Part shown: positions 1,657 to 41,670 of the stretch, one piece after another
Layout: every line of letters begins with the position of its first letter
Position numbering within the stretch: the first letter of the stretch is position 1
DNA from: Limonium bicolor
Taxonomy: Eukaryota > Streptophyta > Magnoliopsida > Caryophyllales > Plumbaginaceae
Assembly (NCBI GenBank): GCA_023374045.1
Contig: CM041779.1
Coordinates: 272,851,758-272,915,757, forward strand
DNA length: 64,000 nt
Reading direction: 5' to 3'
Notes under the pieces: model-generated
Seen by the model: the letters and a program-made list of their open reading frames with translations, nothing else
Databases searched by the model: none
What the model was told of the DNA's origin: nothing
Program-made: the position numbers and the translations under genes

Positions 1657-1661
1657 GCGGT

Positions 1662-4600
1662 TGTAACACCCCTACCGTTAATCCTATGCTTACCGTCCAA
1701 TCATCCCAATAATCAAAGCTACTCACAGCGGAAAATACCTACTACTACGGCGGGTGATACAACGCCGCTAACCGCCCATACGGCTAGCAAGGCTTACACT
1801 ACTTACAGTCACGGTCTGATGATCATAGTATACCGAACTACTGCATTACTTACCAATACAAAAGAGCATATACTTACATTGATGGATTACCGAGTGCCAA
1901 GTATATTCAATTACATCATTTCCAAGTTTACCAAAAATAATGAGTTTCTACCATCCACTCATCTATACCAATTCACCATCCCATCAATATCCAAAAAGGT
2001 GTACCCCATGGTACACCGGCTAATCAAAAGGCTCCTAGCCGTGTACAACTTAGTACACCATTCACAATTCATTAATTACAACTCAAAAGAAATCTACTAA
2101 GTCTTCATCATCTTCACCCCTCTCGTGTACCTGCGTGTAGTAAAAAAACATCGCCCCAAGGGGCTCAGCAAAAGCTGCGCATAAACTCATATACCGTGTG
2201 CTAGCTAGGGCACGCCGACTAATTAAGGTCGAATAGGCATGCAGTTCATTTATTTCATACATACATGCTTTACATACATCATACATTCATGCTCAATACG
2301 ATACATAATCCAAGGCGACAATACAATAGCATACACAATCCTTACCTTCACAAGGGTTAGCCAAATTACGCATCCGGGTTAATCGGAATGCTTTTTACTC
2401 TTTTACTCATTACACATTACTTACTCTTACTTACACTTACTTACTTTTTCCATACTTATTACTCATTCTTACTTACTTACTTTTACTCATGTTAAGTCGG
2501 TATGACCTCCAGCCCGGGGACTACACCGTCCCACCACCGGGATTTACTTGACTCACCAATCCGGGATGCTACCCATTTAAGGGGTTTGGGCCGCGGACCA
2601 GTTTAAGAGTCAGGACTTGGATCCAACCTCTTGTGTCTCTGCATCCTCACGCGTGGCCAAAACTATATCGGACTTCTGCTCATTCCAATTTAATTACCAA
2701 TTTAAGTTAGATTGGTTAGCTTGTTAGGAATCAGTTAGAAGTCCAATCGCAAACACATTCGGTCACAGTACAATGCATCATACATACACACACTCATATT
2801 CATCCACACATTTCATGAATTATACAAACTATGATTTAAAGAAAATATTCAACAAGATACAACACTACATATTCACAAGTAAGCATGATAACTCCGATTC
2901 GTGCAATTATCTTATTTGGTGGTCAATTAGCACACAACACACAAATCAGAGTAACCAAGATAGCATACGGGGCATGAGGAATTCATACCGTTCACCGTTG
3001 TACTTGTATCCGACGTTCCTCCGGTGTTCACAATCCAAATCCTAACATATACATACAACTGGGTGGTTAATTGCCCTTACTAATTACTTTACTAATATTT
3101 CCCGATTTACACTTACTATTTCATTGTTGTTCAAATACTTTTAACTAAGTTACTTACTTACAATTATTCTCTAAGCTTGTTTATGGCCTTAATGACCTTT
3201 AAACATCATTAATTATGTCTTAATTATCTTATAATACCATCACCCAACCTTAACCTACCTTAGATTACCTTTTAAACATGTTCTGTACAATTTTGGGGTT
3301 GGTCCGGGTTACCGTCCGGACTTACATACCCGGACCAACTCACTGGGACAGCCCTCGGGTAACTTAATCGCATGGTCCGGGTTTACACCCTAGTATACAG
3401 ACCCGGACCACATGGTTACAGAACTCTCGGGTAAGTTTTTCGTGTGGTCCGGGTTTGTGTACTACTTTGCAAACCCGGACCACATTTTTTGGTAAGTTAC
3501 GGGTATGTTTTTTGGGGTGGTCCGGGTTAGTGTCTTGGTTTGTAAACCCGGACCATCCCTTTGTAAAACTTTCTGTCGTGTTTTTATGCTGGTCCGGGTT
3601 TGCGTACTGGTTTGCGAACTCGGACCAGTTACAGTTTTGCAAATTATGTAAGTTTTTCAACTTGTTTAAATTCCAAATTTCTACCAGTCTCTTTCCTAAT
3701 ATTCCTACATATAATCTAGCATGTTTTAACTTTGTTTAAGCATTTTAAACTAGCCTAATACAACCTCATAGCAATCTGTTACATTAACCCACTCACACTG
3801 CAAGTTTTACTCCTCTGTTGCATTTCTACTTCTTCAACTAATGCTACAGACTTTCCCATTCTTCTTCCCACTAGCCAAATAACTCTTAAACTAGCCTAAC
3901 TTAGTTAAACAACTCACGTTTTACCATTTACAACTCCACTCAACTACACTCTTCCTTCCTGTTACAAAACAAAGTGAAAAATCTCATTCTTAGCTTCTCT
4001 GCAATTCTCTTCTGTTTCTTTCTTTTCTAACACACACAAGACTCTAAATTCCTAACCAAATTTTGACAGAGTTTCCCTACATTCCTAAGTGTTCTCACCA
4101 CATAATTTTTCCCCTCAACAAAGTTCACAACCTGTACAATATATACATTATTCTCTCCACATTCTAAATATCACTGCACACCTACTACTTACACTTAACA
4201 ATTTATTTACTTGTTTTCAAAGGCTTCAAACTACCAATACCATTCACATTAGTATACCCATTCACTTCCTACTATTACGGTGGTTTCCAAACATTGTTAC
4301 AGTAATGCATTTATACCTACACGAGACCAAAACTGTACAGAGACTTCTCTTTACCTTGGGTTTCCTTGATTCCTTTTTCTTTCTCTCCTTCTCCTTTCTT
4401 GCTCCTCTCTCGTTCTTTGTTCTCTTGATTTATTCAAGCCAAGCTACACCATGTAACAAGGCACACACAGACACACCAAACTAATAAGTTTCATACGTAG
4501 GTTTTTAAACCCTAGATTATGAGAATTCATTTACATCACTTAGAAGATCTTACCTTGAGCTTCTAATGGAATTTTTTGAGTAGAAAATGACAAGGCTTCA

Positions 4601-5491
4601 ACTCCTCACAGTGGCATGCCAAAATCGGCTGACAATGGGATAATGTTGCTCACGTGAGTTTTGGATTTTGCAAGGGAAAATGAAAAAGAGTGAAGCTTTG
4701 GTCTTTTTCTTACCTTAGAACATGAAGAAGATGATAGGTCTTCTAATGGTTCTCCTCAAGCTCCAAAACGATTAACCCCTCAAAAATAAAGTTGGAGGTT
4801 TTAGATTTTTGAAGGGTGTAGGATGATCTCCTTGACGATACGAATTCAACGGTATGGTTTTTGTAGCATTTGGTGGTGGTTTGAGGTTTCAAAGATGAAG
4901 AAGAAGAAGAGGGCTCTGTATGTGGGTTCTCAAATCGCCATGGTTGGAACCAGAGAGGAAGAAGAGAGGTGCAGTACGTGGGGGTTGTGTGTGAGAGAGG
5001 AGAGAGAGTGCTAAAAGTGAGGCTTGCTTTTTATTTGTTTTGTTTGTTAGCACATAAGGAGGGAATTAAGAAGAGGGATATGGGTTCTAATGCGGCCGGC
5101 TACCCACACAGCACACACACTCACTTTCAGTTTTTATTTTTAAAAGTGGACACACTAGTTTATTTTAATTACACTCTCACCCCACAACTCCCCGTTTTTG
5201 ACAGTTTTTACTATTTTCTCGTTTTACTGATTTTATTGGTCATAGACCTTCATTAATGTTTATTAATGACTATTTAGTTGACCAAAATTGTTACGAGTCT
5301 ATTTGACCCGCTTAAAGTCGCGTTTTCCCGGTTTCCTTGGAAAACGCGCTTTAATGTTCGTTTGTGTTTTTAATCCATTTTAAGAATCCGTTTCCTTCGG
5401 GATTTGTTCCCAGTATTTATTTATACTAAATTAAGCTTCTAAAATATTTATTAGCCTAATTAATCACTATTTTTAATTACGGGGTATTTCA
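1662..5491 (-). repeat. R1 3' LTR (left copy)
   Basis: A 3,830-bp LTR bounded by TG...CA on the minus strand, matching 11981-15809 along its whole length with scattered substitutions and small indels. It contains the hairpin array at 3301-3628. Short open frames inside it reappear in the other LTR copy and resemble no protein family I recognise. Confidence 0.93.
3301..3628 (-). repeat. Hairpin array, five units, period 72-73 bp (R1 3' LTR)
   Basis: Five palindromic units start at 3301, 3374, 3446, 3519 and 3591. Each has arms GGTCCGGGTT and AACCCGGACC (the last arm slightly altered) around a 14-16 nt loop, separated by about 36-nt AT-richer spacers ending near GGTAAGTT. Arms are strongly conserved while loops and spacers vary. 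Being palindromic, the array would fold in RNA from either strand. Function unknown. Confidence 0.9.
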
Positions 5492-5927: not shown

Positions 5928-8900
5928 CTAGACTATATAGTCTATGAACAACTGTGGGTACTTCGCCTTCATGGCATCTTCCAACTCCCATGTCGCTTCT
6001 TCGACATCATGGTTTGACCATAGGACCTTCACCATTCGTATAGACTTATGGCGAGTGTCTCTGGTCTTCCTATCAAGGATTCTCACAGGGGTCTCGACAT
6101 ATCTCATGGTCGGCTCAATAGATAGTCTCTCAGGCTCTAGGACATGAGAAGGATTAGCAATGTACTTCTTGAGTTGTGACACATGAAATTCATCATGGAC
6201 ACATCCCAAGTCCTCAGGTAGTGCTAACCTGTAGGCTACAGCTCCAACTCTTTCGGTGATAGTGTACGACCCTACAAATTTCGGGCTCAGCTTGCCCTTC
6301 TGACCAAAACGGAATACACCCTTCATAGGTGAGACACGCAAGAACACTTGGTCGCCCACGGCGAACTCAAGGTCGCGTCGTCTCACATCCGCATAGGATT
6401 TCTGTCTATCTTAGGCTGCCTTCATATTGGCTAGGATTTGTTGCACTTCCGCTTGGACTTGTTCTAAGTACTCCAGTCCTATGATGACCGCTTCGCTTGA
6501 CTCGTCCCAACACAAAGGTGTACGACAAGGTCTACCGTATAGAGCTTGGAATGATGACATCTTAATCGAGGCATGGTAGCTATTATTGTATGAAAATTCG
6601 ATAAGATGAAGCTTGTCTAACCAACTCCCCTGAAAGTCTAAGGCACATGCCCTAAGCATGTCCTTCAGTGTCTGGATGGTCCTTTCTGTCTAACCGTCGG
6701 TCTGAGGATGGAAGGCGGTACTCAACTTCAATTCTGTACCCAACGCTTTCCGTGTGGCTCTCTAGTATCTCGAAAGAAATCTGGTGTCGCGGTCAGATAC
6801 TATAGTTTTTGGGACTCCGTGATGTCTGATAATCTCCTTGTCGAATAGCTCTACGAGCCTCACTACCTTCCAGGTGTCCTTCATCGGTATGAATCTGGCA
6901 ACCTTGGTAAGGCGATCGACTACAACCCAGATCATGTTGAGTCCTCCCCTGGCAGGTGGGAGTCCTACAACAAAATCCATGAAGATATCATGAAATTTCC
7001 ACTCCGGAACTAGCATCGATTGTACCATTCCGCCCGGTCTACGATGTTCAAATTTCACCTTCTGGCATGTTAAGCATCTCAATATGTACTCCGTCACATC
7101 TAATTTCATTCCAGACCACCGGAAGTACCTCTTCATGTCCTTGTACATCTTGGAGGCTCCTGGATGGACTGACAATGCAGAATTGTGTGACTCTCGCAGG
7201 ATGCGATCCCTTAGCTCAGCATTGCTTCGGGGAACGCATAGTCTGCCGTTCAGCCGAATCAGACCATCTTCATGTAGCTTGAAGTCATACTTCTTCTTCT
7301 CAAATGTACCATTTCCGATCTTTTGTCTGATTTCGGTTAGGTAAGGGTCGCTCAACTGAGCGTCTCGCACCTTGTCAACCAAGGTAGAAGAAGCGAGTAG
7401 AGAATGGAGCGAGTGTGCTTGACGACTCAGGGTGTCGGCTACAACGTTTGCCTTCCCTTTCTTATACTGTAGGTCGATGTCGTAGTCTGAGAGAAACTCC
7501 ATCCACCTTCTCTGTCTCAAATTCAGTTATTTCTGTGTGAATACATACTGTAAACTCTTATGGTCGGAGTAGATTGTGATGCTTACCCCATAGAGATAGT
7601 GTCGTCATATCTTCAGGGCGAAGACAATGGCTCCTAACTCTAAGTCGTGTGTCGGGTAATTCTCCTCATGCTTTTTCAGCTGGCGGGAGGCATAAGCTAC
7701 AACCTTGCCATGCTGCATGAGTACGCATCCCATTCCCTTGCCTGATGCATCACAATACACCTCAAATCCCTCTGTGCCCTCTGGAAGAGTAAGGATGGGC
7801 GCTGAGGTCAATGAGTCCTTTAGGCTCTGAAATGATACTTCACATTCGTCTGTCCATACAAACGGTGCATCTTTCTTCATCAGTGTAGTCATGGGCTTAG
7901 CGACTTTCAAGAAGTCCTTTACAAATCTCCGATAATAACCGGCTAGACCAAGAAAGCTCCGAATGTCGGTAACAGTCTTAGGTCTAGGCCATGATCGTAC
8001 AGCTTCAATCTTAGAAGGGTCGACTGAGATACCTGCGCTCGAGATGACGTGACCAAGGAATGATACCTGATCTAGCCAGAACTCGCATTTGGAGAACTTC
8101 GCATACAGCTGGTTCTCGTGCATTGTCTCAAGAACTTTCCTCAAATGAATTTCATGCTCTTCTACTAATTTGGAGTATACAAGGATGTCGTCGATGAAGA
8201 CAACAACCGAAGTGTCCAACTGCTCACTGAATAGACGATTCATGAGGTCTATGAATTTTGCTGGTGCATTTGACAAACCGAATGGCATGACGGTGAATTC
8301 GTAGTGGCCATATCTGGTACGGAATGCCGTTTTCTCGATGTCTTGCTCTTTGATAGCAATCTGATGATACCCAGAACGGAGGTCGATCTTGGAGAAGACT
8401 AAGGCTCCTTTCAGCTGGTCGAATAGGTCGTCGATGCGTGGCAATGGGTATTTATTCTTGACTGTCACCGCATTCAACTCGCAGTAGTCAATACAAAGTC
8501 GGAGGCTACCGTCCTTCTTCTTCTTCACAAAGAGGACCGGTGCTCCCCAAGGTGATACGCTCGGGCGTATAAACCCTTTGTCGAGTAAGTCCCGTAACTG
8601 CTCCTTGAGCTCTGTCATTTCAGCAGGTGCCATACGGTACGGTGCCCTAGCAATGGGACCAGTACTTGGCAAGAGGTCAATCTCAAATTCTACCGCTCTC
8701 TGAGGTGGCATGCCGGGTAGCTCCTTGGGGAATACATCGGGAAATTCGGATACAATGGGTACTTCGGGGTTGAACTCTGGATCTCTCTCCAGGTCTTGTA
8801 CATAACACAAATACACTTCATGGCCCTTTCTGAGCTCCCGGTACATAGCCATAGCGGAGATGAGTGTGGTCGAAGGCTCTCTCGGTCTCTGGCGGTAAGA

Positions 8901-9318
8901 TACAGTAACCCTAGAAGGACTCTTGAGCAGTAATCGATGCTCGGCGCAGAGGATTCTACCCTTGTGCCGCTCCAACCAATTCATTCCGACTATTACATCG
9001 AATCCCAACCCATTGAATTCGATGAAGGAGATGGGAAACGATTCGCCTTTGATTTCAATCTTGGCTGCTTGGTAGTATTTGGTACACTGTACTCGCTCCT
9101 TCGATGGAAGAGTAACCATGAAGTTCGGTAGCTCATCCGCATCTAGCTTCAACCTCTTCACAAAAGATGGCGATACGAAGGTGTGAGAGGCGCCGGAGTC
9201 GAATAACACTGTGGCTTCAATGCCTTCACTGGGAAGGTTCCCGTTAAAATGGTGCCGCTTTTACCGGCTTGTGCTTCGGTGAGGATACTCAGGTTACCTT
9301 CGGTACCGAGTCCACAAC
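5928..9318 (-). pseudogene. pol: R1 pol: protease, reverse transcriptase, RNase H, integrase, chromodomain (five stops, one frameshift)
   Basis: The retroelement polymerase polyprotein. The inferred exon starts at 9318, after the splice acceptor AATAG at 9323-9319. Protease has the DSGAS active site near 9200. RT has the FIDD form of the YxDD box. RNase H begins near the CDASGKGMG motif. Integrase has an HHCC zinc-binding region, the D of MDFVVGLP and the D of SDRDTRF. It is followed by a KLSPKFVGSY (GPY/F) segment and a chromodomain ending VEEATWELE. One base is lost near 9233. Below that, a single frame runs to 5928, interrupted by stops at 7605-7607 (Trp site), 7527-7529, 6762-6764 (Trp), 6690-6692 (Gln) and 6411-6413 (Gln). 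At least four are C-to-T-type changes on one strand or the other, as expected from methylated-cytosine deamination. Dead as a polymerase. Confidence 0.92.
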
Positions 9319-10354
9319 CTATTGAATTCACAAGTGGTTAAGTAATGATGGTGGACACAAGTGGAATTTAAATCAACACTGCTCTTTGTTGATAAACCAA
9401 CCATCATACATACCGTGCCTCTAATACACGTTACTAATACATTACATGATGCTATGAATTTAATACTTCCTAAAGGTAAGGTTCAGACGTCCTGGTTTCA
9501 TGTGTGTGGCATCGATTATTGCCGGTGGTGCCGTATTCAGCTTGATCTTGTTGATCCCGTGATACAACATCCTAGATTTTCCACCCATGATTAGGACATC
9601 TCCTGATCTCAACACCAATTTCTCTGCGAGGTCCACACGCTTCTGCTGACTATACATAAATACAGCATCATCACCAACGAACCAAGACACTACGGGCACT
9701 CCTTGTTCAAGGGATTCCGCTGTCTCGTCCTTGTCTTGGTGTAACCCAAGTCGTCCTTCTTTCTCATAGAAGTTGACGATACAGAGGTCCGCTTCAAGTG
9801 CGGGAACCGGATCACATTCACATTGTTGTGCAAGTTGTACTGCTTGTGTGACAAGTGTCTGAAACTCTGGAGGTATTGTTGGTGGCGTCGCTCCGTCTTG
9901 AGTTCGTGTCTCTTGGTATGTCTTGGTATAAGGATTCCAATCCTTCCCTAAGCACATCATTTTCAGTCTCATCTTCGCTCCACCGGGGAATCCGGGTGTA
10001 TAGAATCCTCCTTGACCCGTTCCTAGCTCGTTGCATCGTCGAATAATTGAGACTTGTGCTTCAGGTGTCAGGTATCCCCTTAATAAAATCATACCTTGTC
10101 GGATGACCTGACACTGCTCGCTGGAGTAGTGGTATGTGGTGATGTCGGTCTCTTCTTGATTCAGGTTTACCGGTATCGGATAGCAGATACTAAAGCTTCC
10201 TATGGTTACAAATTTCATCTATGGTGAGTACTAGTTTTAACTACTTCATTTCATGCTCAATACACACTTCATTTCATTTACTCATACATTCACTCATACG
10301 ATTACTCTAATACTTAGTCATGCTTCTCAAGGATTAAAGGTGTAGATTAATTAC
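9319..10354 (-). other. R1 alternative intron: one gag donor, two in-frame acceptors
   Basis: The donor CCAG|GTAATT has its first intron base at 10354 and interrupts a codon after base 1. Acceptor A (CCATAG|GAAGC, exon from 10199) restores a Gly codon and enters the AlkB frame; the intron is 155 bp. Acceptor B (CAATAG|GTTGT, exon from 9318) also restores a Gly codon and enters the protease frame; the intron is 1,036 bp and removes AlkB. Unspliced RNA stops two codons after the donor (TAA at 10349-10347). R2 has the same donor, both acceptors and the same phases. Inferred from sequence and phase only. Confidence 0.75.
9460..10218 (-). CDS. AlkB-type 2OG-Fe(II) dioxygenase, ALKBH1-like, inside R1
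   Basis: A 252-residue open frame, intact from ATG at 10218 to TAA at 9462-9460. AlkB proteins use Fe(II), 2-oxoglutarate and O2 to remove alkyl groups from DNA, RNA or protein. The full active site is visible: N149 and Y151 (NFY), H160-x-D162 (HQD), H220 (LYHG), and R244 and R250 in RLNLTFR. Their spacing matches the AlkB family. GGFYTPG (70-76) and LKMMCLGKDW (85-94) resemble plant ALKBH1-type proteins. The true N-terminus is probably not the ATG: R2 lacks it, whereas the splice acceptor just after it (exon from 10199) is conserved in both elements and joins gag in frame. The product would then be Gag-AlkB. The substrate is unknown; the element's own RNA or cDNA is a guess. Capture of a host gene is the simplest origin. 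Confidence 0.9.
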   Translation of the reverse strand: MKFVTIGSFSICYPIPVNLNQEETDITTYHYSSEQCQVIRQGMILLRGYLTPEAQVSIIRRCNELGTGQGGFYTPGFPGGAKMRLKMMCLGKDWNPYTKTYQETRTQDGATPPTIPPEFQTLVTQAVQLAQQCECDPVPALEADLCIVNFYEKEGRLGLHQDKDETAESLEQGVPVVSWFVGDDAVFMYSQQKRVDLAEKLVLRSGDVLIMGGKSRMLYHGINKIKLNTAPPAIIDATHMKPGRLNLTFRKY

Positions 10355-11753
10355 CTGGGCCGGACTTAGAACCGGACCCATCACGGTCTATGACATGCAA
10401 GACAGGCTGCCTCTGGGGTGCGCCCCTCTGAGGACCTCGGGATCCCTGTCCCTGTGGCGCCTGCTGGGCTGGTGCATCGCCAGATGCAACCTCCTTGCCT
10501 TCCCTCTGCTTGTAGCTCTGGAAGTTCCCTCTCGGTTTAGCATTCTTGGGGCATACATTGGCTTGGTGTCCGGGCTTCTGACAATTGTAGCACCGGATTT
10601 CTCTCCCTTGGCAATCCTTGCCGGGATGGTCTTGGTTGAACTTCCGGCACACATAAGCGCGGCCGTCAGAGAAGTTCTTGGTGAAACCGGAGCCAGAACC
10701 CTTAGGTGGGTGTGATCTCAGTGGCTTTGCTGCCACCGGCGCAGAAGAACCTAGTTGAAGAAGCTCAACTGGTTTGCCCTGCTTAGCATGGGCACTGCTC
10801 TCACTTGGGAAGTTCTTTTGGGTTTGATGAAAGAATTTCCCTTTCTTCTTTTTCCAGCTTTTCCCTTGGTTCTGCTCCTCGGCGCTAGTGTTCTTGTTGT
10901 TAGCCTTGCACTTCAGCGCGGTTTCCTCATCCCGTAGTTGACAAGTGATCTCAACGCGGGAAGCCGCGTGATAACACTCCTAAAGTTTTAGGTATTAGCC
11001 GGGATTCTCATTTAAGAAGATAAAGGTAAAGATAAAGTATTTAAGGAATTGAAATGGTACCAAGGGTTTAAACCAATATTTACCTGAAGGGAGGTAAATC
11101 TAGTGTAGCCCATACCATACCGCAGGCGATGGCTCAGACCGCCATAAAAGTGATCGACCAACACCTGGCCGGTGTACCCTAGGTCGGGTAGGAGACGGAG
11201 GATATAAGTGAAGGTCCTGTAGTACTCATCGACAGACATCTTCTCTGTCATTTTCAAAGCGTCGAGTTCAAGCCTTTTCTTGGTCTTGACATGTTCTGGG
11301 TTGTACTTGGATTGGAGGAGTGATGCGAAGGACTCCCAATCGAAGGTGGGGTCGTTGACATGCTCATGCTTGACTAGTTTCCACCAATCCATGGCTGCAT
11401 CTTTCAGATAATAAGCCGCTAACCTCACTCGAACTCCAGCAGGACATTCGAGGGTTTCAAATGCGGTCTCCATTTCGGAGATGTACGCTTCCAGTTTAGC
11501 AGGATCGCTCTCGTCTCTAAAGCATGGAGGACGGAGATCTGTGATAGCTTTTACCCAGTTCACTTCTCTGGGTGGAGGGGGGGGGGGGGAATGGTCCCGT
11601 TTGAGTCTGCTGGTTCTGTTGATTTTGTTGTATGGCATTAATTACTTGCGGTAGCATCTGCGCTACCGTGGCGGCGACGATCTCAGCTATCGTCTGCGTG
11701 CCAGGTCCTTCAGAGGCTGCGCCTCTCCCTCGGCCTCGGCCTCGTCCTGACAT
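10355..11753 (-). pseudogene. gag: R1 gag: capsid and zinc-knuckle nucleocapsid, two exons, frameshift in a poly-C run
   Basis: The structural protein that packages element RNA. Exon 1 runs from ATG 11753 (MSGRGRGRGRG) to 11084. Exon 2 runs from 10979 to 10355 and is open throughout. The intron (10980-11083, 104 bp) has CTTCAG|GTAAAT and ACTTTAG|GAGTG borders and joins in phase 0; without splicing the frame ends about 23 codons after the donor. Capsid core motifs include WVKAITDLRPP, ETAFETLE, AAYYLKDAAMDWWK and MSVDEYYRTF. Exon 2 has a basic, low-complexity linker, a degenerate first knuckle (second Cys replaced by Phe) and a good CCHC knuckle (CYNCQKPGHQANVC). A 13-base homopolymer (G on the plus strand, 11577-11589) causes a one-base frameshift at the proline run of exon 1; it may be a mutation or an assembly error. 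The start was chosen by comparison with R2. Confidence 0.85.
10980..11083 (-). other. R1 gag intron 1
   Basis: A 104-bp GT-AG intron inferred because the two flanking gag frames join in phase, with the same junction (after a Leu-Gln pair, before Glu-Cys-Tyr-His) as the 95-bp intron at 26384-26478 of R2. The intron sequences are unrelated by eye whereas the exon edges are conserved. Confidence 0.8.
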
Positions 11754-11963: not shown

Positions 11964-11975
11964 GCTCTGATACCA
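11964..11975 (-). promoter_or_regulatory. R1 primer binding site, tRNA-iMet
   Basis: The minus strand reads TGGTATCAGAGC five bases after the 5' LTR end. This is complementary to the 3' end of plant initiator tRNA-Met, the usual primer of plant Ty3/gypsy chromoviruses. Confidence 0.92.
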
Positions 11976-11980
11976 CTTTT

Positions 11981-14900
11981 TGTAACACCCCTACCGTTAA
12001 TCCTATGCTTACCGTCCAATCATCCCAATAATCAAAGCTACTCGCAGCGGAAAATACCTACTACTACGGCGGGTGATACAACGCCGCTAACCGCTCATAA
12101 GGCTAGCAAGGCTTACACTACTTACAGTCACGGTCTGATGATCATAGTATACCGAACTACTACATTACTTACCAATACAAAAGAGCATATACTTACATTG
12201 ATGGATTACCGAGTGCCAAGTATATTCAATTACATCATTTCCAAGTTTACCAAAAATAATGAGTTTCTACCATCCACTCATCTATACCAATTCACCGTCC
12301 CATCAATATCCAAAAAGGTGTACCCCATGGTACACCGGCTAATCAAAAGGCTCCTAGCCGTGTACAACTTAGTACACCATTCACAATTCATTAATTACAA
12401 CTCAAAAGAAATCTATCTAAGTCTTCATCATCTTCACCCCTCTCGTGTACCTGCGTGTAGTAAAAAAACATCGCCCCAATGGGCTCAGCAAAAGCTGCGC
12501 ATAAACTCCGCATATACCGCGTGCTAGCTAGGGTACGCCGACTAATTAAGGTCGAATAGGCATGCGGTTCATTTATTTCATACATACATGCTTTACATAC
12601 ATCATACATTCATGCTCAATACGATACATAATCCAAGGCGACAATACAATAGCATATACAATCCTTACCTTCACAAGGGTTAGCCAAATTACGCATTCGG
12701 GTTAATCAGAATACATTTTACTCTTTTACTCATTACACATTACTTACTCTTACTTACACTTACTTACTTTTTCTATACTTATTACTCATTCTTACTTACT
12801 TACTTTTACTCATGTTAAGTCGGTATGACCTTCGGCCCGGGGACTACACCGTCCCACCACCGGGATTTACTTGACTCACCAATCCGGGATGCTACCCATT
12901 TAAGGGGTTTGGGCCGCGGACCAGTTTAAGAGTCAGGACTTGGATCCAACCTCTTATGTCTCTGCATCCTCACGCGTGGCCGAAACTATATCGGACTTCT
13001 ACTCATTCCAATTTAATTACCAATTTAAGTTACATTGGTTAGCTTGTTAGGAATCAGTTAGAAGTCCAATCGCAAACACATTCGGTCACAGTACAATGCA
13101 TCATACATACACACACTCATATTCATCCACACATTTCATGAATTATACTAACTATGATTTAAAGAAAATATTCAACAAGATACAACACTACATATTCACA
13201 AGTAAGCATGATAACTCCGATTCGTGCAATTATCTTATTTGGTGGTCAATTAGCACACAACACACAAATCAGAGTAACCAAGATAGCATACGGGGCATGA
13301 GGAATTCATACCGTTCACCGTTGTACTTGTATCCGACGTTCCTCCGGTGTTCACAATCCAAATCCTAACATATACATACAACTGGGTGGTTAATTACCCT
13401 TACTTAACCTTACTAATTACTTTACTAATATTTCCCGATTTACACTTACTATTTCATTGTTGTTCAAATACTTTTACCTAAGTTACTTACTTACAATTAT
13501 TCTCTAAGCTTGTTTATGGCCTTAATGACCTTTAAACATCATTAATTATGTCTTAATTATCTTATAATACCATCACCCAACCTTAACCTACCTTAGATTA
13601 CCTTTTAAACATGTTCTGTACAATTTTGGGGTTGGTCCGGGTTACCGTCCGGACTTACATACCCGGACCAACTCACTGGGACAGCCCTTAGGTAACTTAA
13701 TCGCATGGTCCGGGTTTACACCCTAGTATACAGACCCGGACCACATGGTTACAGAACTCTCGGGTAAGTTGTTCGTGTGGTCCGGGTTTGTGTACTACTT
13801 TGCAAACCCAGACCACATGTTTTGGTAAGTTACGGGTATGTTTTTGGGGTGGTCCGGGTTAGTGTCTTGGTTTGTAAACCCGGACCATCCCTTTGTAAAA
13901 CTTTCTGTCGTAATTTTATGCTGGTCCGGGTTTGCGTACTGGTTTCCAAACTCGGACCAGTTACAGTTTTGCAAATTATGTAAGTTTTTCAACTTGTTTA
14001 AATTCCAAATTTCTACCAGTCTCTTCCCTAATATTCCTACATATAATATAGCATGTTTTAACTTTGTTTAAGCATTTTAAACTAGCCTAATACAACCTTA
14101 TAGCAATCTGTTACATTAACCCACTCACACTGCAAGTTTTACTCCTCTGTTGCATTTCTACTTCTTCAACTAATGCTACAGACTTTCCCATTCTTCTTCC
14201 CACTAGCTAAATAACTCTTAAACTAGCCAAACTTAGTTAAACAACTCACGTTTTGCCATTTACAACTCCACTCAACTACACTCTTCCTTCCTGTTACAAA
14301 ACAAAGTGAAAAATCCCATTCTTAGCTTCTCTGCAATTCTCTTCTGTTTCTTTCTTTTCTAACACACACAAGACTCTAAATTCCTAACCAAATTTTGACA
14401 GAGGTTCCCTACATTCCTAAGTGTTCTCACCACATAATTTTGCCACTCAACAAAGTTCACAACCTGTACAATATATACATTATTCTCACCACATTCTAAA
14501 TATCACTGCACACCTACTACTTATACTTAACAATTTATTTACTTGTTTTCAAAGGCTTCAAACTACCAATACCATTCACATTAGTAGACCCATTCACTTC
14601 CTACTGTTATGGTGGTTTCCAAACATTGTTACAGTAATGCATTTATACCTACACGACACCAAAACTGTACAGAGACTTCTCTTTACCTTGGGTTTCCTTG
14701 ATTCCTTTTTCTTTCTCTCCTTATCCTTTCTTGCTCCTCTCTCGTTCTTTGTTCTCTTGATTTATTCAAGCCAAGCTACACCATGTAACAAGGCACACAC
14801 ATACACACCAAACTAATAAGTTTCCTACGTAGGTTTTTAAACCCTAGATTATGAGAATTCGTTTACATCACTTAGAAGATCTTACCTTGAGCTTCTAATG

Positions 14901-15809
14901 GAGTTTTTTGAGTAGAAAATGACAAGGCTTCAACTCCTCACAGTGGCATGCCAAAATCGGCTGACAATGGGATAATGTTGCTCATGTGAGTTTTGGATTT
15001 TGCAAGGGAAATGGAAAATAGTGAAGCTTTGGTCTTTTTCTTACCTTAGAACATGAAGAAGATGATAGGTCTTCTAATGGTGCTCCTCAAGCTCCAAAAC
15101 GATTATACCCTCAAAAATAAAGTTGGAGGTTTTAGATTTTTGAAGGGTGTAGGATGATCTCCTTGACGATACGAATTCAACGGTATGGTTTTTGTAGCAT
15201 TTGGTGGTGGTTTGAGGTTTCAAAGATGAAGAAGAAGAGGGCTCTGTATGTGGGTTCTCAAATCGCCATGGTTGGAACCAGAGAGGAAGAAGAGAGGTGC
15301 AGTACGTGGGGGTTGTGTGTGAGAGAGGAGAGAGAGTGCTAAAAGTGAGGTTTGTTTTTTGTTTGTTAGCACATAAGGATGGAATTAAGAAGAAGGATAT
15401 GGGTTCTAATGCGGCTGGCTACCCACACAACACACACACTCACTTTCAGTTTTTATTTTTAAAAGTGGACACACTAGTTTATTTTAATTACACTCACCCC
15501 ATAACTCCCCGTTTTTGACAGTTTTTACTATTTTCTCGTTTTACTGATTTTATTGGTCCTAGAACTTCATTAATGTTTATTAATGACTATTTAGTTGACC
15601 AAAATTGTTACGAGTCTATTTGACCCGCTTAAAGTCGCGTTTTCCCGGTTTCCTCGAAAAACGCGCTTTAATGTTCGTTTGTGTTTTTAATCCATTTTAA
15701 GGATCCGTTTCCTTCGGGATTTGTTCCCTAATATTTATTTATACTTAATTAAGCTTCTAAAATATTTATTAGCCTAATTAATCACTATTTTTAATTACGG
15801 GGTATTTCA
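11981..15809 (-). repeat. R1 5' LTR (right copy)
   Basis: A 3,829-bp LTR nearly identical to 1662-5491, flanked on the outside by the GCGGT duplication. In sense orientation it should hold promoter, R and U5; I found no strong TATA box in this family member. Confidence 0.93.
13633..13960 (-). repeat. Hairpin array (R1 5' LTR)
   Basis: The counterpart of 3301-3628, with the same five units and 72-73 bp spacing. A few arm bases differ (for example AAACCCAGACC in the third unit), which weakens single pairs. Confidence 0.9.
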
Positions 15810-21280: not shown

Positions 21281-24200
21281 CTAAGAAGCAAACAATGACG
21301 GGTGCTTCGCCTTCATCTTTTCTTCCAGCTCCCAAGTGGCCTCCTCAACGTCCTGGTTAGACCAGAGGACCTTCACCAGTCTCACGGACTTATGGCGAGT
21401 GTCTCGAGTCTTAGTGTCCAGAATCCGTACCGGAGTCTCCACTGATCGCATGGTCGGCTCTAAAGTTAGCCTTTCAGGCTGAAGCACATGAGACGGATGA
21501 GACATATACTTCTTCAACTGGGACACATGAACATCATGTACCTTGCCCAGCTCGGCGGGTAAATCAAGTCTATAAGCTACCGGGCCGATCCGCTCCGTCA
21601 CAACATAAGGACCTACATATTTCGGGCTCAGCTTGCCCTTCTCACCAAAACGGAATACTCCCTTCATGGGGGATACTCTTAAAAATACCTGATCGCCCAC
21701 GGCGAACTCCAGGTCACGTCGGCGCACATCTGCGTACGACTTCTGTCTATCCTGAGCTGCTTTCATATTAGCCCTGATCTGGCGAACTTCTGCCTGAACT
21801 TGCTCAAGATACTCTGGTCCTATAATGACCGTCTCACTCGACTCATCCCAGCATAATGGGTGCGGCATGGTCTACCGTAATGCCTGGAAGGGAGACATCT
21901 TGATCGATGCATGATAACTGTTGTTGTAGCTAAACTCGATCAGATGTAACTTATCAATCCAGCTGGTCTGAAAATCAAGTGCACATGCACGTAGCATATC
22001 CTCAAGTGTCTGTATAGTGCGCTCACTCTGACCATCGGTCTGTGGGTGAAACGCCGTGCTCAACTTCAGTTCAGTACCAAGTGCCTCTCGTGTAGACTTC
22101 CAATATCTGGATAGGAATCTGGTATCTCTGTCAGATACTATCGTCTTTGGTACACCATGATGTCTAACAATCTCTTTATCGAATAATTCTGCCAATTTTG
22201 CCACTTTCCAGGTGTCCTTCATCGGAATGAATCGAGACACCTTGGTCGTCGGGTCAACTACCACCCAAATCATATTTAGACCTCCCCTTGTAGGCGGAAG
22301 CCCTACCACGAAGTCCATAGATATGTCATGGAACTTCCACTCCGGCACTGGCATTGGCTGCACCATACCACCAGGCCGTCGGTGCTCAAACTTGACCTTC
22401 TGACAAGTGAGACACCTTAACACATAGTCATTTACATCCTTTTTCATTCCAGCCCACCAGAAATATCTTTTCATACCTTTATACATCTTTGAAGCTCCGG
22501 GGTGAATCGAAGTAGTAGAACAATGGGATTCACTCAATATGCGCTCCTTCAGCTCAGCGCTACTCCTCGGTATACACAACCGGCCATTGAGCCTAATCAG
22601 GTCATCATCGTGGAGTCTGAAGTCGTACTTCTGACCCTCGAATGTGCCATCAATAAGCTTCTGTCTAATTTCCACCATATACTGATCCGTCATTTGAGCA
22701 CTCCGCACCTCTTCAACCAAGCCAGTATGAGAGACTAGCGAATGGAGAGAGTGTGCTCGGCGACTCAATGCGTCAGCTACCACGTTTGCCTTACCCTCCT
22801 TATACTGTAAATCAATGTCATAATCATTCAAGAATTCAACCCACTTCTCTGCCATGTTCAACTCTTTCTGAGTGAACAAGTATTTCAAGCTCTTGTGGTC
22901 AGAATAGATCGTCACACTTACCCCATACAAGTGATGTCGCCATATCTTCAGTGCGAAGACAATGGCCCCCAGTTCTAAGTCGTGGGTAGGGTAGTTCTCC
23001 TCATGCTTCTTCAGCTGTCGGGAGGCGTAAGCCACGACCTTCCCGTTTTGCATCAACACACAACCCATACCCCTGCCTGATGCGTCGCAATAGACCTCAA
23101 AACCATCTGGACCGTCTGGTAATGTCAGAACCGGTGCAGATGTCAGAGCATCCTTGAGACTCGTGAAAGCTCTCTCACAGTCGACTGTCCACTCGAAAGG
23201 TGCATCCTTTTTCATCAAGGAAGTCATCGGCTTCGAGACGCTGGAGAAGTCCTTCACAAATCTCCTATAATAACCTGCCAGACCGAGGAAGCTCCTGATG
23301 TCGGTAACTGTCTTCGGCCTAGGCCAGGTGCGCACTGCATCAATCTTCGCCGGATCAACAGCGATCCCGGCCTCAGAAATTACATGTCCAAGGAATGATA
23401 CTTGGTTCAACCAAAATTCACACTTAGAAAATTTAGCATACAGCTGATTCTTTCTCAACGTTTGTAATACATCTCTCAGGTGGCTTTCATGCTCACCTCT
23501 CGATTTCGAATACACAAGTATGTCATCGATGAAGACTACCACTGATTTGTCCAACTGATCTTGGAACAAACGGTTCATTAAGTCCATGAACTTTGCTGGT
23601 GCATTTGATAAGCCAAACGGCATAACGGTGAACTCATAGTGCCCATACCTAGTTCTGAAAGCTGTCTTTTCGATGTCACTGTCACGGATGGCAATCTGGT
23701 GATATCCAGAACGTAGGTCTATCTTGGAGAATACTGATGCTCCCCTAAGCTGATCAAATAGATCGTCGATGCGTGGTAAGGGGTAACGGTTCTTCACCGT
23801 AACAGCATTCAGCTCCCGATAATCAATACATAGGCGGAGGCTACCGTCCTTCTTCTTCACGAAGAGGACCGGCGCTCCCCATGGTGACACACTAGGGCGA
23901 ATGAAGCCCTTGTCGAGTAGGTCTCGCAGCTGCTCCTTGAGCTCTGTCATCTCTGCTGGAGCCATACGGTAAGGTGCTTTCGCAATGGGTCCGGTGCCCG
24001 GAATCAAGTCAATCTCGAACTCAACCTCTCGTGCTGGCGGCATGCCCGGCAGTTCCTTAGGAAATACATCAGGAAACTCCGACACTACCGGCACACCTGG
24101 GCTAAACTCAGGGTCTCTCTCTATGTCCTGGACATAGCAGAGGTATACATCATTTCCCCGTCGTAACTCGCGATACATGGCCATGGCGGTGATGATCTGT

Positions 24201-24650
24201 GTCGAAGGCTCCCTGGGCCTCTGGCGGTAAGATATTGTAACCCCAGATGGACTCCGAAGAAGTAGTCGATGCTCGGCACATAGGATTCTGCCCTTGTACC
24301 GCTCCAACCAGTTCATCCCGACAATCACATCAAAACCCAGTCCGTCGAACTCTATCAAGTCGATCGGAAACTCCTCATCCATGATTCGAACAATAGCATC
24401 TCGGTAGTAGCGGGTACATCTGATCTGCTCTTTCGACGGAGAGTGACCACGAAGTCTGGCATCTCTTCACCATCTAACCCCAGCCTCTTCGCAAATGATA
24501 GCGAAATGAACGTGTGTGAGGCTCCAGAGTCGAACAAGATCGATGCATCCACGCCATTCACTGGAAAGGTACCGGTGAGGATTGTGCCGCTCTTGCCGGC
24601 TTCTGCCTTATTGCAGACACTCAGTATACCTCCCGTTCCGAGTGCACAGC
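21281..24650 (-). pseudogene. pol: R2 pol: protease, RT, RNase H, integrase, chromodomain (two lesions)
   Basis: Inferred exon from 24650 (acceptor GAATTAG|GCTGT). Protease DSGAS lies near 24540. A one-base loss near 24443 shifts the frame just after it. From 24382 an 836-codon frame carries RT ([22 protein letters not shown]), RNase H ([13 protein letters not shown], then [13 protein letters not shown]), an integrase zinc finger (H-H-C-C, ending CLTCQKVK) and the integrase core: D in [10 protein letters not shown] in SDRDTRF, E in [12 protein letters not shown]. Near 21885 two small deletions (two bases plus one base) cancel each other but leave a local stop. The frame resumes at 21868 with the GPY/F segment (LSPKYVGPY) and a chromodomain (LVKVLWSNQDVEEATWELE). 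Chromodomains of this class direct integration toward modified histones. Far better preserved than R1 pol. Confidence 0.92.
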
Positions 24651-25705
24651 CTAATTCATTGGCAAACTATAAGTATTGGGTAACAACACGTTGATACACT
24701 CCAAAACAACATTCCTTTATTCATTAACACAGTCCTTACACCATAAATTGGTTACATTGTAGGCATTGCTAGACATAGCTCCTTTGTCAAACCACTGGCT
24801 TAATACAATACATGGTTACACAAGGCTCAAAACTGCCTGAAAGTCAAATTTAAACGTCCAGGTTTCATGTGTGTGGCATTGATCACTGCCGACGGTGCGG
24901 TATTCAGTTGATCTTTCTGATGCCATGGTATAGCATCCTTGATTGCCCACCCATGATTAATACATCCCCCGATTTCAGAAGTAGCTTCTTTGCGAGATCA
25001 GCACGCTTCTGCTCGCCATACACAAACACAGCGGTATCACCAATGGACCAAGACACCACGGGTACTCCCTTACTTAGAGACTCGGGTGACTCGTCCTTGT
25101 CTTGGTGCATACCTAACCGTCCACCTTTCTGGTAGAAGTTTACAATGCATAAATCTGCTTTTACACTTGGAATTGAATCCGCTTCAACTTGTTGAGCAAT
25201 TCCCACGGCGTGGTTAACGACCGCATGGAACTCCTCTGTATGCTTCTACGTTGCTCCATCTTCAGCTCGACTTCTTGATAATGACTTGGTGTAAGGGTTC
25301 CAGTCCTTACCCATGCACATCATCTTCAATTGCATCCTTGCTCCGTTCGGGTATTCGGGTGTGTAGAACCCTCCTGGTTTTGCTCCAAGTTCGTCGCATC
25401 GTCTGATGATGTGGATTTGTGCTTCCGGTGTCAGGTATCCATTTAAGAGTATCATACCTGGCTGGATAACCTGACATTGCTCCAATGGAAAGTCGGTGAT
25501 GTTGATGGCGGTTTCTTCAGGGTTTGGTGCGGGTGGGATTGGATAGCAGATATTGAAGGTTCCTAAGTTTCAAATTGCCTAATTTAGGTGTTTTCCACAT
25601 TATGTTCTAACTCTTTACTTATATGTTTATACCCTTAGACTTGCTAACACTCATGCATGAAATGCGGTAAGCAATCACTTTTTCATTTATCAGTTTAGGC
25701 GGTAC
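24651..25705 (-). other. R2 alternative intron: one gag donor, two in-frame acceptors
   Basis: Donor ACCAG|GTACC has its first intron base at 25705. Acceptor A (AACTTAG|GAACC, exon from 25562) opens the AlkB frame after a 143-bp intron. Acceptor B (AATTAG|GCTGT, exon from 24650) opens protease after a 1,055-bp intron. Both restore a Gly codon, exactly as in R1. Unspliced RNA meets TAA three codons after the interrupted proline. Confidence 0.72.
24827..25562 (-). pseudogene. R2 AlkB-type dioxygenase (one stop, one frameshift)
   Basis: Homologous throughout to the R1 AlkB protein and in the same place between gag and pol. The exon opens at 25562 after a conserved AG acceptor; there is no in-frame ATG, which supports translation as a Gag fusion. 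The HQD iron ligands, the LYHG histidine and the RLNLTFR arginines are still encoded. Lesions: TAG at 25248-25246 after EDGAT, and a one-base loss near 24907 after the GIRKIN segment; the restored frame ends at TGA 24829-24827. Many residues differ from R1 (for example NFYQKGGRLGMHQ against NFYEKEGRLGLHQ), so the two copies have diverged over an appreciable time, and capture predates the split of the R1 and R2 families. Confidence 0.88.
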
Positions 25706-26049: not shown

Positions 26050-26129
26050 CTATCACAATACATCATCAATACTTGTCTCACAACTTACTAACATATACTC
26101 TAACTTATCACACAGAGTTAGACAATTAC
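26050..26129 (-). other. R2-specific gag intron 2
   Basis: An 80-bp insertion relative to R1 with GT...AG borders and a T-rich 3' part. Splicing restores one Ala codon and a continuous frame into the zinc-knuckle exon. Either R2 gained it or R1 lost it. Confidence 0.68.
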
Positions 26130-31285: not shown

Positions 31286-32885
31286 GAGCAGTGCAGAGGT
31301 GTTGTCGGTTGTAGTGTCAAGTACTTCATAGGAGGCACATGCTGAAAATTCATCTCGTTTGACCAAGAGTTAGCGATTAATTACCGTTAATAGATTAACT
31401 GATGTCGGGTATGGTGCCGGACATCTCTTGTCCTGCACAAGTACCTTTTCACTAATTTGAAGGTTAAATCGACCGTCAGAAAACACGTGTTATATATGGT
31501 GCCGAATGCTTCTGATCCGGCATGACTCCCGACACATGAAGATTTTGAAGTCCATAAATAGGCCGAGAGTCTGCACACTTCAACACATCTTCATTCCACA
31601 TTCACGCCTCCATATTCCACAAATTTTCCACACATTACTGCCAAGAGTCCTACACTTCCAACCTTCAAGGAGAAGACTTCTATCGGGTTCGAGGGAATTC
31701 TCACTAAGTTTTCTCTTTTCCTCTTTATGTTTCTTCTTGTAATTGAATGTTTGGTTGAGTAGAATTCTTGGTCATCGTTGGTTAGGGATGATCTTCTTGT
31801 AAAACAATTATGATCTTTTAATAAAGTTACAAGTTTCAAACTTAGATTTTTGATATTTGTGCAAAGTGGATTAAGTTCGCTACTTATTCTCTTAACTTTA
31901 AAATTCTTCTTTTGTTAATCAAAACAAAGCCATAATGGGTTGAGAAAATTTAAGTGATTTTTGCCTTTGTCTTCTATAAATTAGGAGATGATAATTAAGA
32001 TTTGGAATTAACCATTTTATTCTCCACTTTCTTGTTTGTTTATTGGAATAAAATTTGCTGGATTCGATAATGGATTGTGAGTGTTTTGTTTCAAATTCAA
32101 AACCGGAAAACAATCTTTACATTTTGGTCTTGTCGGATTCATTGTCGGGTGTATGGTGTCCAGCGCATTCAAAGTTTTGAATGTGTCGTGCATACTATAT
32201 CCGGTATGACATCCGGCATGTTTAAAAATTGGTTAATTCGAGACTTGCTAATTTTCTTTGTGATCATACTTGTTCTTGTGTTGATTATTATCCCGAATCA
32301 AGGATAGTTCATTGTAAATACTCCATTTAGATAGATTGTTAGATAGTTATTTTAATTTGAATTTATGATATTTTCCCCCATTTTTATTAGTATAGGCAAT
32401 TACTAGGATTAGTACTGATTTTCTATTAAGTCCCTTGAGTTCGATACTCTTGGTCGTAATTTACTTACACTTTATTATGACCTGGATTTTTGCTGCCCGT
32501 AGTAGAGTTGTAGGATTCTTTTATTCTTTTATTTATTTTGTATATTCTTTTCCCTACAATTATCCTGTTAGCATGTATAAACATATTTCTTTACTTTTTC
32601 CACTTTGAGATAGAATGTTAGTACGAGAGAATCGTATTACCAAACTTTATTTATAAATATAGGTTTAAGCATGAGAAGAATGTAGGGGTGAGCAAAAGAG
32701 TTTGAATGATTCTGTTTAATCGTGTACTGAACTTGTCTACATTGTTTAGGAACCCTTTATCAACTAAGTAAAGGATTAAATTATTGGTTTCAAACAATTT
32801 GTTTAGTCCACTTTGTTTAAGAATCTGGGAATTGAACTATTCTACTTTGCTTAGTCCTGTTTGTTTGAGAATTTGAGAGCTGAAC
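31286..32885 (+). other. Older repeat remnant, possibly LTR-derived, in the hAT1 intron
   Basis: Variants of GTGCCGGACAT / ATCCGGCATG recur at about 31405, 31500-31530 and 32140-32220, and also just before R2 at 16980. A TATA-like CCATAAATAGG near 31553 and an AATAAAG near 31820 look like promoter and poly(A) signals of an old LTR, and CCCTTGAGTTCGATACTC near 32430 resembles LTR-end sequences of plant gypsy elements. I could not find matching ends. 32690-32890 is a minisatellite with CTATTCTACTTTGTTTAGTC-type units. Confidence 0.35.
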
Positions 32886-32890
32886 TATTC
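32690..32890. repeat. Minisatellite interrupted by R3 (left part)
   Basis: Imperfect units containing GAACTATTCTACTTTG and TTTAGTCC.CTTTGTTTAAGAATCTG, spaced about 50-60 bp. They continue on the other side of R3 at 46188-46270, showing that R3 inserted inside the repeat. Confidence 0.65.
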
Positions 32891-35800
32891 TGTAACACCC
32901 CATCCAACAACAAACACATAACAACAATCTGCAGCGGAAAAACAACTTCATCACATTACTTAACTCGTTGGTGTTACACGCCGTTAACCACCCACGTGGC
33001 TAACAAGGCTATTACATATACATTGTACCGGTCTGATGGACTAGATTCCCGAGCGACTACACATTATTATCCCTTTCCATTGACAACAAAACATACACAT
33101 ACCTTCCAACTGTACCGAGTATTTACAACTGATGCCGATAACAATTTCGGTCTTACTACACCTACTGTATATATACAACTTAAATGATTACCCATGTACA
33201 ACGACTACCCCGTCCTACTCTCGAACGGCTTCCAACTCTTTGTACCTGAAATAGGAAAATAAGAGAAAGGGTGGCCCCCAAGGGGCTCAGCACCTTTGCT
33301 GGTATGGTAATCCCGCAGCCCGCATGCTACTGGGCCACGCACAACTAATTATCGTCTTAGCATGCGGTTGATTTTATTTGAATCATGCATGTAAACTTAA
33401 ACACATCACATAACATTCCACCTCAAAGGGCTCAACAAACAGATAACACCACCTTACTTGATAAGTCACTCATGGTGTTCATTAACCCTAGAGTGTTTCT
33501 CCTCTAACAGAGCTACTTCCTTAATAGACGACACTTACCTATTAATCGGGTTATCATTAAACGCCTCTTATCACAAACTGGGATTCATATCCATGATCCA
33601 CATACTCCACACTTTACAACATATCACATACATCACATAACAACACATAACAACACTTTTCACGTTTCAACGTGCACATAATAACATCGCAATAGAAATT
33701 GCATTACATCAAAAACACATAACATAACGGGAGCGGTTCTCTTAGGAACCAACCCAAACATTGTTAATTCACTGGTGAGCCTAGAGAATGATGTCACCCT
33801 CATGATAAACTCGTTATACAACACTCATTACCGTCCTAATAGTCGGACGAGTAACTTAAGTTAAGATGGTTCGGGTTAGTGGCCCGAACACACCGCACAA
33901 ACACATGTTTCCCCCTAAACCGATCATAAGTCAGAATAGCTAAGCTTTAGAGTAAGATAATGGGAGATCATAACCCGTGAGGGAAACAACCATAACAGAG
34001 AGAAGGGTAAGGCTAAGAAGGATACCCACTCCCAAACAACGCGCGACCGGCCTAACCGGATTCCTCACCACTGTTAGTACATACTTACTTTTAGATATTA
34101 GTTAGAACCCCACTACGGAGTCTATCACATCTACACACCATACAGTATTACAACTGGGTTAAACATACAAGGGAGGTCCCTACATTCACACACACATATC
34201 ACACAATTAACACACGCATAGCCGTGGTTAGAACGTCCCATGGTTTGGGTCGTTTAATCCGAATACCGAACTCTCATGTGATCCTAGACTTAGTTAGCTA
34301 AGGTTTAACACTTTCGAGGTTAAATGGTATCGGAGTTGAACACGCCACATAAATGAATTACTGTAAACTCATTACATGTTTTATCTTACAACGTGGCAAA
34401 CATACAGAAAAACACATTGGCATACAAGCCGGTGTAATCCGGTAGGACACAGGTTGCAAGAAAACCATACCTGTCACCGGAGTCCACTTTATCATGTCCA
34501 CTTATGTTCCTCGAGCAATTCTCGAACAACTGATAACATTACATGTACTTTATTAACATCGGGGTAACATGGTTGTTTAAAGTCTAATGCTTATAACTTA
34601 TCCCCGTTAACTTAGTTAAATAACTTCACATTTTAACTTATTTTACCTTTACATTTTAATACAACTTTTCCCCCACTAATTTGTCATTATTACTCACTCA
34701 TCATGTCCTTAACAATCTTATAACATCATTACTTAATAATCCCCATCATCCTATAACCTTAAACAATGTTTTTTTTTTTACATATTTGGGTCGTCCGACC
34801 CACCGTCCGACCCACAACTGGGTCGGACCGTTCCAGAAACTTTCTCCGTCTTTTAAATACACCTGTCCGACCCATGTCCGACCCAAGACCTCTGGGTCGG
34901 ACCATTCCAGAAACTCTAACGGTTGCATTAACAGAGCTGTCCGACCCACCCTGGGTCGGACAACACCAGAATTTGTCCAAAACTTGTCAAACTTTCTCCA
35001 AACTTTTCCTCAAGCCTCCTAATGTGTTATAACATCATTTGGCACATCAAACACACCTTTAGCCATGTACTAAACTCTTTAAATCACTCACCAAAACCAT
35101 CTTATCATTCACAAATTTCTTACAAAATTCCTAGCACTTGGAATGTTTTCTCCTTAAGATTTCTAAGTGGTATTTCACCTATAATGACCACTATACCAAG
35201 GTGTTTCCTCTACACCTTACATCATCTCTCAACTTCTTTTCTTACTAACTAAATCTCCTTTTCACATCTTACCTAAAATCATTTCCTCCTTGTACATCAA
35301 CATTCCTAAACCTTAAACAACTTCTCCAAGACTTTAATACATTCTCAAAAACACTCATTGAATTCCTAGAACTTCCAAGATAATACCTAAATCCTTGTAC
35401 CACTCTAAATCACCTTAATACATGCTTTCTTCCCTAGTAAAACACTTGTTCACCTTTAACACTTCCTAGTTCACCAAAACTTATTTAAAACACTTATAAC
35501 TTCATATACATTTTCCAAATTTTGCCATAGCTTCTCTTGTATATTCTCACATCCAAACACTTAGGTTTTTACCTTATTTCATTCAAAAACACCTAAATCC
35601 ACCAAGATCTTTCTCACACACAAAACTTCACCAAATTTACACTACATCACAATATAGTGTATAAACTTAAATTGCTTGGCACTTAGGCCCTTAAATAACA
35701 TGGCTCTTAGGCCCTTAAATTGCATAAACCTTAAACACTGAATTTCCCACATAAATAATGCCTTTGACCTGCAATTACATACAACAACACATATGCCCTT

Positions 35801-36630: not shown

Positions 36631-36648
36631 ATCTGCCCCCCTTAAAAG
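36631..36648 (-). promoter_or_regulatory. R3 polypurine tract
   Basis: The minus strand reads CTTTTAAGGGGGGCAGAT before the 3' LTR, with one interruption relative to R2. Confidence 0.8.
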
Positions 36649-36763
36649 AACTTCGTCCTCGAAGTTCACACTTCCCACACATCATTAGATTAGAACACAG
36701 GAATAACTCACAAAATAGAACTTCCATAACCAAACGTACTTTACATCACAACCTCGGACTTAA

Positions 36764-38050: not shown

Positions 38051-38068
38051 CTCTACCCCCCTTAAAAG
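38051..38068 (-). promoter_or_regulatory. R3 second PPT-like motif
   Basis: CTCTACCCCCCTTAAAAG on the plus strand, followed by GGATTACGCCCACGTAATC, 1,420 bp from the true PPT. It corresponds to the second motif of R1 (5879) and R2 (21232). Confidence 0.55.
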
Positions 38069-41653: not shown

Positions 41654-41665
41654 GCTCTAATACCA
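41654..41665 (-). promoter_or_regulatory. R3 primer binding site, one mismatch
   Basis: TGGTATTAGAGC on the minus strand, one C-to-T change from the R1/R2 site, five bases from the LTR. The inverted repeat 41639-41660 surrounds its 3' part. Confidence 0.85.
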
Positions 41666-41670
41666 CTTTT

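Follow-up and report, generated by a model that had tools for sequence, protein, structure and literature searches.

A predicted splicing choice between Gag-AlkB and Gag-Pol in a plant Ty3/gypsy retrotransposon lineage

How could a retrotransposon that carries an AlkB gene between gag and pol express both the enzyme and the polymerase? This question is raised by R1, an element within a 64,000-nucleotide stretch of Limonium bicolor DNA (the window). An initial annotation of R1 had proposed that a single splice donor at the end of gag faces two in-phase acceptors, one before AlkB and one before protease, so that alternative splicing would set the ratio of Gag, Gag-AlkB and Gag-Pol.

R1, an LTR retrotransposon on the minus strand, has LTRs that are at least 3.8 kb long and share 97.3% identity (3846 columns). 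From 5' to 3', it encodes gag (PF03732, CCHC), AlkB, protease, RT, RNase H, integrase and a chromodomain-like end (Table 1). The motif TGGTATCAGAGC at 11964..11975 is probably a tRNA-Met primer binding site. Rfam and tRNA scans returned no matches. A second copy in the same window, R2 (~17.0-31.3 kb), has the gene order of R1 and LTRs of 97.6% identity (3983 columns). Both copies have the LTRs and the gag-PR-RT-RH-IN order of Ty3/gypsy LTR retrotransposons. Matches to the chromodomain profile PF00385 score 24.5 bits in R1 (E 2.6e-5), 24.1 in R2 (3.3e-5) and 17.8 (0.0031) in P0198, a pol protein from a likely third element, against a curated cut-off of 25.1.

Table 1. Features of R1 and R2, with positions in the window
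Feature	Position	Strand	Basis or counterpart
R1 5' LTR, aligned part (outer end not fixed)	11980..15809	-	identity to 3' LTR
Candidate PBS motif TGGTATCAGAGC adjoining R1 5' LTR	11964..11975	-	read from sequence
R1 gag exon 1 (capsid, PF03732), frame-broken	11084..11753	-	profile match and ORFs
Predicted intron a in gag (CAG/GTAAAT ... TTTAG/GA), phase 0	10980..11083	-	R2 counterpart 26478-26384
R1 gag exon 2 (CCHC zinc knuckle, PF00098); last base is the G of the phase-1 donor	10355..10979	-	
Shared predicted donor GT (CCAG/GTAATT)	10353..10354	-	R2 counterpart 25706
Predicted intron c1, gag donor to AlkB acceptor, 155 nt, 69% AT	10200..10354	-	
R1 AlkB exon (ALKBH1-type 2OG-Fe(II) dioxygenase), own stop at end	9460..10199	-	
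Inner AlkB candidate donor GT (AAG/GTATGA, exon end 10095), phase 1	10093..10094	-	R2 25458
Spacer, AlkB stop to protease acceptor, 65% AT	9319..9459	-	
R1 protease/RT exon from second predicted acceptor; frame break 9318-9209	7605..9318	-	
R1 RNase H end, integrase, chromodomain-like pol end; premature stops	5928..7520	-	
R1 3' LTR, aligned part	1661..5491	-	identity to 5' LTR
R2 predicted intron c1; donor exon end 25706	25563..25705	-	
R2 AlkB exon; one stop and one frame break	24827..25562	-	
R2 protease/pol exon from predicted acceptor 24650	21872..24650	-	

Other elements and repeats lie elsewhere in the window. R3 (32884-46182), considered as a third copy, was rejected on the absence of gag, pol and AlkB matches. 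It is a third LTR element, probably a non-autonomous derivative, with LTRs that are in part 76% like those of R2. Remains of hAT transposases lie at 47909-48637 and 55224-56063 (PF14372, PF05699), and at 62792-63933 short units repeated in 8- and 12-base steps form a long array that gives rise to MYVC-repeat ORFs. A 121-nt stretch at 59790-59910, perhaps an LTR fragment, matches the R1 LTRs (5213-5333 and 15530-15650) in inverted orientation at 93%.

The two copies diverged long ago. In tblastn comparisons, pol is 83-84% identical (with a further 39-residue piece at 67%) and AlkB 66% and 76% in two pieces, while dS reaches 1.38 across AlkB and 2.46, near saturation, across protease-RT. Because of this old divergence, R2 is an informative comparison for R1. 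R1 is itself defective: gag exon 1 is frame-broken, pol has premature stops, and the protease reading frame is interrupted between 9318 and 9209, ahead of the DSGA motif, with the pol ORF 9209-7605 lying in another frame. Splicing of R1 would consequently yield no Gag-Pol. In R2, the frame is open from 24650 through DSGA and is broken elsewhere. The predicted switch is therefore a property of the family, not of copy R1.

At the sites themselves, most of the initial annotation stood. Exon end 10355 (CCAG/GTAATT) precedes the donor, and G10355 is codon position 1, giving the claimed phase 1. The proposed acceptor AGs end at 10200 and 9319, and the exons from 10199 (G/GA AGC TTT) and 9318 (G/GT TGT GGA) each complete a Gly codon as described. 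Both acceptors were said to open the right frame, which is so for AlkB; the protease frame is correct for ~30 codons, but R1 then breaks before DSGA. Unspliced RNA stops where expected, reading G-N-stop in R1 and stopping after G-T-A in R2, and AlkB (PF13532, E = 9.4e-44) indeed ends with its own stop at 9460. The comparison with a further copy, which the annotation had suggested as a check, bore it out: R2 keeps the donor (25706), the AlkB acceptor (25562) and the protease acceptor (24650), all in phase 1.

The proposed splice-site scoring was performed with a splice-site matrix. The R1 donors (that of intron a and 10355) rank first and second of 144 GTs, with 10355 second, but acceptors are moderate in both copies: in R1, 10199 ranks 16 and 9318 ranks 9 of 223, and the R2 acceptors rank 24 and 33 of 228. 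The R2 donor 25706 ranks 13 of 174. Such scores are plausible, not outstanding. Of the phase-compatible AGs that are open to the respective domain, the predicted acceptor lies furthest upstream in all four cases across R1 and R2; such AGs make up 4 of 24 for R1 AlkB, 4 of 13 for R1 protease, 2 of 15 for R2 AlkB and 5 of 18 for R2 protease. Eight GTs lie at the gag end of each copy; the R1 donor is one of four in phase 1, and that of R2 is the sole one. R2 keeps 3 of the 14 GTs and 3 of the 14 AGs of the first intron, and 2 of the 8 spacer AGs; conservation of bare GT and AG dinucleotides is weak evidence by itself.

A further question is how the two downstream frames could be reached at all. 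In-frame stops occur 4-8 codons upstream of all four acceptors, for both the AlkB and protease frames and in both copies. In R2, the stop is 4 codons upstream of the AlkB acceptor, and AlkB has no in-frame Met before Met35. An in-frame ATG upstream of the AlkB acceptor, at 10218, is found in R1 only. Between the upstream stop and DSGA, there is no Met in R2 or in either R1 frame; P0198 has one shortly before DSGA. No AUG in the AlkB or protease frame is conserved between R1 and R2. Given the upstream stops and the lack of a conserved AUG in both copies, splicing appears to be the simplest way to express either frame. Frameshifting or readthrough from gag to pol is ruled out by ~1 kb with many stops. 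Joining the AlkB end to pol by splicing was also rejected, since by eye R1 and R2 share no in-phase donor before the AlkB stop. So was a duplicated protease block at the gag end: in own-element tests, 204 and 74 of 1000 shuffles were as good, and against ten relatives the result was 2 of 300 for R2 (P0256 and P0264 only) and at best 14 of 300 for R1.

Coding constraint follows the predicted exons. Identity between R1 and R2 is 46% across intron c1 versus 70% across AlkB. With bootstrap intervals, pN/pS is 0.33 (0.25-0.42) for AlkB, 0.43 (0.22-0.77) for its first 35 codons, 0.30 (0.13-0.60) for the protease N-terminus and 0.63 (0.47-0.89) for the last gag codons. Read as codons, the first intron gives 1.35 (0.78-2.93) and 0.98 (0.58-1.96) and the spacer 1.41 (0.89-2.98), all intervals including 1. 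Constraint thus starts at the predicted acceptors, and none is detected between the exons. AT content is 64-71% in introns and spacers and 44-53% in exons. When the R1/R2 alignment was segmented with a two-state model and hand-set parameters, 10213-9423 came out as conserved (except 18 columns at 9885-9868), as did the sequence from 9333, against predicted exons at 10199-9460 and from 9318. The segmentation also marks 11078-10999 as unconserved, matching intron a (predicted 11083-10980), along with several coding stretches of gag. Donor 10355 does not show up as a boundary, owing to the weak conservation of the gag C-terminus.

Intron a is a further conserved predicted intron within gag. When the tail of gag exon 1 was projected on the relatives, 8 of 10 continued with the pattern x-x-Y-x-x-A (read by eye). 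Intron a is supported because R1 gag exon 2 opens in the same way, with E-C-Y-H-A-A. Local alignment placed the head of gag exon 2 on none of the ten relatives. R2 has a putative second gag intron on the minus strand (26050-26129, AGG/GTAATT ... GATAG/CA) that is absent from R1, in a region where the R2 frame is broken nearby. If this intron is real, introns would have come or gone from one transposition to the next, and the RNA that replicates would have to avoid splicing. Within AlkB, both copies have CAG/GT acceptor-like sites (exon starts 10107 and 25470), 12 nt before the inner candidate donor.

Relatives show the state without AlkB. With R1 pol as the query, 7929 proteins were scored, and ten of the best 120, some of them gene models and others ORFs on contigs, were tested. 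All ten are uninterrupted Gag-Pol proteins in which protease follows gag with no AlkB in between, and in each of them the N-terminal protease block aligns with the predicted R2 exon (scores 56-105). Set against R2 and these relatives, the family-level prediction holds, but R1 cannot make Gag-Pol. The AlkB protein P0002 and the pol protein P0198 both come from contigs of 26561 bp; these are likely one contig, from which we infer a third element. P0002 reads L-G-P-F-D-I-C at the acceptor position, which is compatible with the predicted AlkB acceptor. Among the best 120 of 371 AlkB matches (up to ~808 aa), Pfam identified no Gag domain adjoining AlkB. No further copies were found in IMG/VR, and prokaryote genomes gave one bacterial MAG locus (L001) at 39% identity. 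The sample base is thin, consisting of two defective copies and the inferred third.

What kind of enzyme is involved? Between the copies, AlkB is under purifying selection (dN/dS ~0.2). HxD and YHG occur in all six element AlkBs and RLNLTFR in five of the six (P0003 is cut short). The predicted model (pLDDT 87.7, from a 16-row alignment) has OsALKBH1 as its best PDB match (5xoi/5xeg, TM 0.82/0.91, 50-51% identity), with TM 0.48 to ALKBH5. In a midpoint-rooted tree of 32 hand-chosen rows, with the tandem AlkB P0121 left out, the AlkBs of R1, R2, P0001, P0002, P0003 and P0005 form one group (100/100) against the 26 other rows. By sequence, predicted fold and the HxD...H...RxNxTxR motif, the element AlkB is of the ALKBH1 type, and demethylase activity is predicted. 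It resembles plant ALKBH1 in fold, identity, and metal and 2OG motifs; however, where the host protein has an N-terminal region upstream of the domain, the element has gag. A review (PMC12973404, available text) describes plant ALKBH1 proteins as 6mA demethylases that act particularly on single-stranded DNA.

Taken together, these observations point, with a probability of about 0.55, to one gag donor and two competing acceptors that yield Gag-AlkB or Gag-Pol in a gypsy lineage with a captured ALKBH1-type AlkB. In such a model, a plant Ty3/gypsy chromovirus-like lineage would have captured the gene between gag and pol, R1 and R2 being copies. Unspliced full-length RNA would encode Gag only, and the introns would be kept only if that form is reverse transcribed. 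Joining the gag-end donor to the first acceptor would produce a Gag-AlkB fusion ending at the AlkB stop, and joining it to the second would remove AlkB and produce Gag-Pol, so that the two fusions would compete for a single donor. The fused AlkB could then be carried by Gag into the particle. A more doubtful extension is that, RNA by RNA, the capsid would be given a demethylase or a polymerase, and that packaged, Gag-tethered AlkB would act on single-stranded nucleic acid of the element itself, with cDNA under synthesis as the likeliest target.

Other explanations have to be weighed against this competition for one donor. An Ogre-like intron might give Gag-Pol, with AlkB made as a free enzyme from another RNA (transcribed from a promoter of its own, or carrying a leader that is spliced to the AlkB acceptor) or through internal initiation. 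Grande elements are reported to have an accessory gene driven by a separate promoter, R1 has its ATG at 10218 just before the acceptor, and the orchid element described below has AlkB as its own ORF (PMC9289625, available text). Yet in R2, with its close upstream stop, the 34 codons that precede Met35 are constrained all the same, and in both copies the acceptor is in phase with the gag donor. We consider separate expression unlikely.

The same holds, more strongly, for a cassette in which 10355-10199 and 10095-9318 are both used, so that a 105-nt AlkB start would sit inside Gag-Pol and full AlkB would be made only if the inner donor were skipped. This route shows that the initial annotation was too firm in stating that AlkB cannot bridge to pol: the inner donor (10095 in R1, 25458 in R2) is in phase 1 in both copies and ranks third of 144 GTs in R1 and first of 174 in R2, and 105 nt is divisible by three. 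However, its GGTATG is partly forced by a conserved Gly-Met (GGT is present in both copies at 3 of 17 AlkB Gly codon pairs), and such an insert is found in 0 of 10 relatives tested, though these are without AlkB. Least probable of all, in our estimate, is the relic view, in which AlkB would be carried along without a role, the splice sites would be accidental or decayed, and the copies would be no more than defective elements. Frame breaks and stops in both copies and moderate acceptor scores would fit a relic, but AlkB has been under purifying selection between copies at dS >1 while the LTRs of each copy are 97-98% alike, which argues that it was kept through repeated transposition. The stop-rich ~1 kb between gag and pol would also leave a relic no room for frameshift or readthrough.

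If the competition between Gag-AlkB and Gag-Pol is real, it would be another way in which LTR retrotransposons set Gag versus Gag-Pol, with the choice of spliced product also delivering an enzyme to the particle. It would also represent a second AlkB capture by plant gypsy elements, from a different ALKBH class, and would argue that nucleic-acid demethylation or repair matters to retrotransposons. In the open-licence PubMed Central literature, as far as its text was available, neither an AlkB of the ALKBH1 type in such an element nor a single donor that serves an enzyme and Pol as alternatives was found. The predicted fusion of such an AlkB to Gag by splicing, competing with that of Pol, is thus apparently new relative to the literature searched.

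AlkB in a plant gypsy element as such cannot be counted as new, being already published. In the available text of that report (PMC9289625), Phalaenopsis Gypsy_Pa_2799 is an Ogre-like Ty3/gypsy element with an AlkB/2OG dioxygenase domain, and a screen of 121 angiosperm genomes found the AlkB domain in Phalaenopsis only. The likeness to R1 and R2 is a captured AlkB/2OG dioxygenase in a plant Ty3/gypsy element. However, the orchid element is of the Tat/Ogre lineage and 25 kb long, with AlkB as a separate 565-aa ORF2 and a single Gag-Pol ORF without a gag-pol intron, and its AlkB is an ALKBH5-like m6A RNA demethylase. R1 and R2 have none of these last features; their AlkB is of the ALKBH1 type and lies between gag and pol behind predicted splice sites. 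Differing in lineage, layout and ALKBH class, the orchid element was rejected as an explanation.

Two other systems come close in mechanism. In Ogre elements of pea and Medicago, facultative removal of an intron joins an upstream ORF to the remaining polyprotein (PMC6317226, PMC12786077). That intron, averaging 274 bp, lies after protease, between the protease and RT parts, and in the available text of these sources no coding content is reported for it. The predicted intron of R1 and R2, unlike that of Ogre, precedes protease and encloses an enzyme gene that has a predicted acceptor to itself. In BARE1 and EVADE, splicing near the gag-protease border likewise sets Gag versus Gag-Pol, with spliced RNA encoding Gag only and unspliced RNA Gag-Pol, according to the available text (PMC3735527, PMC12786077). 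The prediction for R1 and R2 is the reverse: unspliced RNA would encode Gag only, whereas the two spliced forms, both of which by phase extend Gag, would encode two different fusions.
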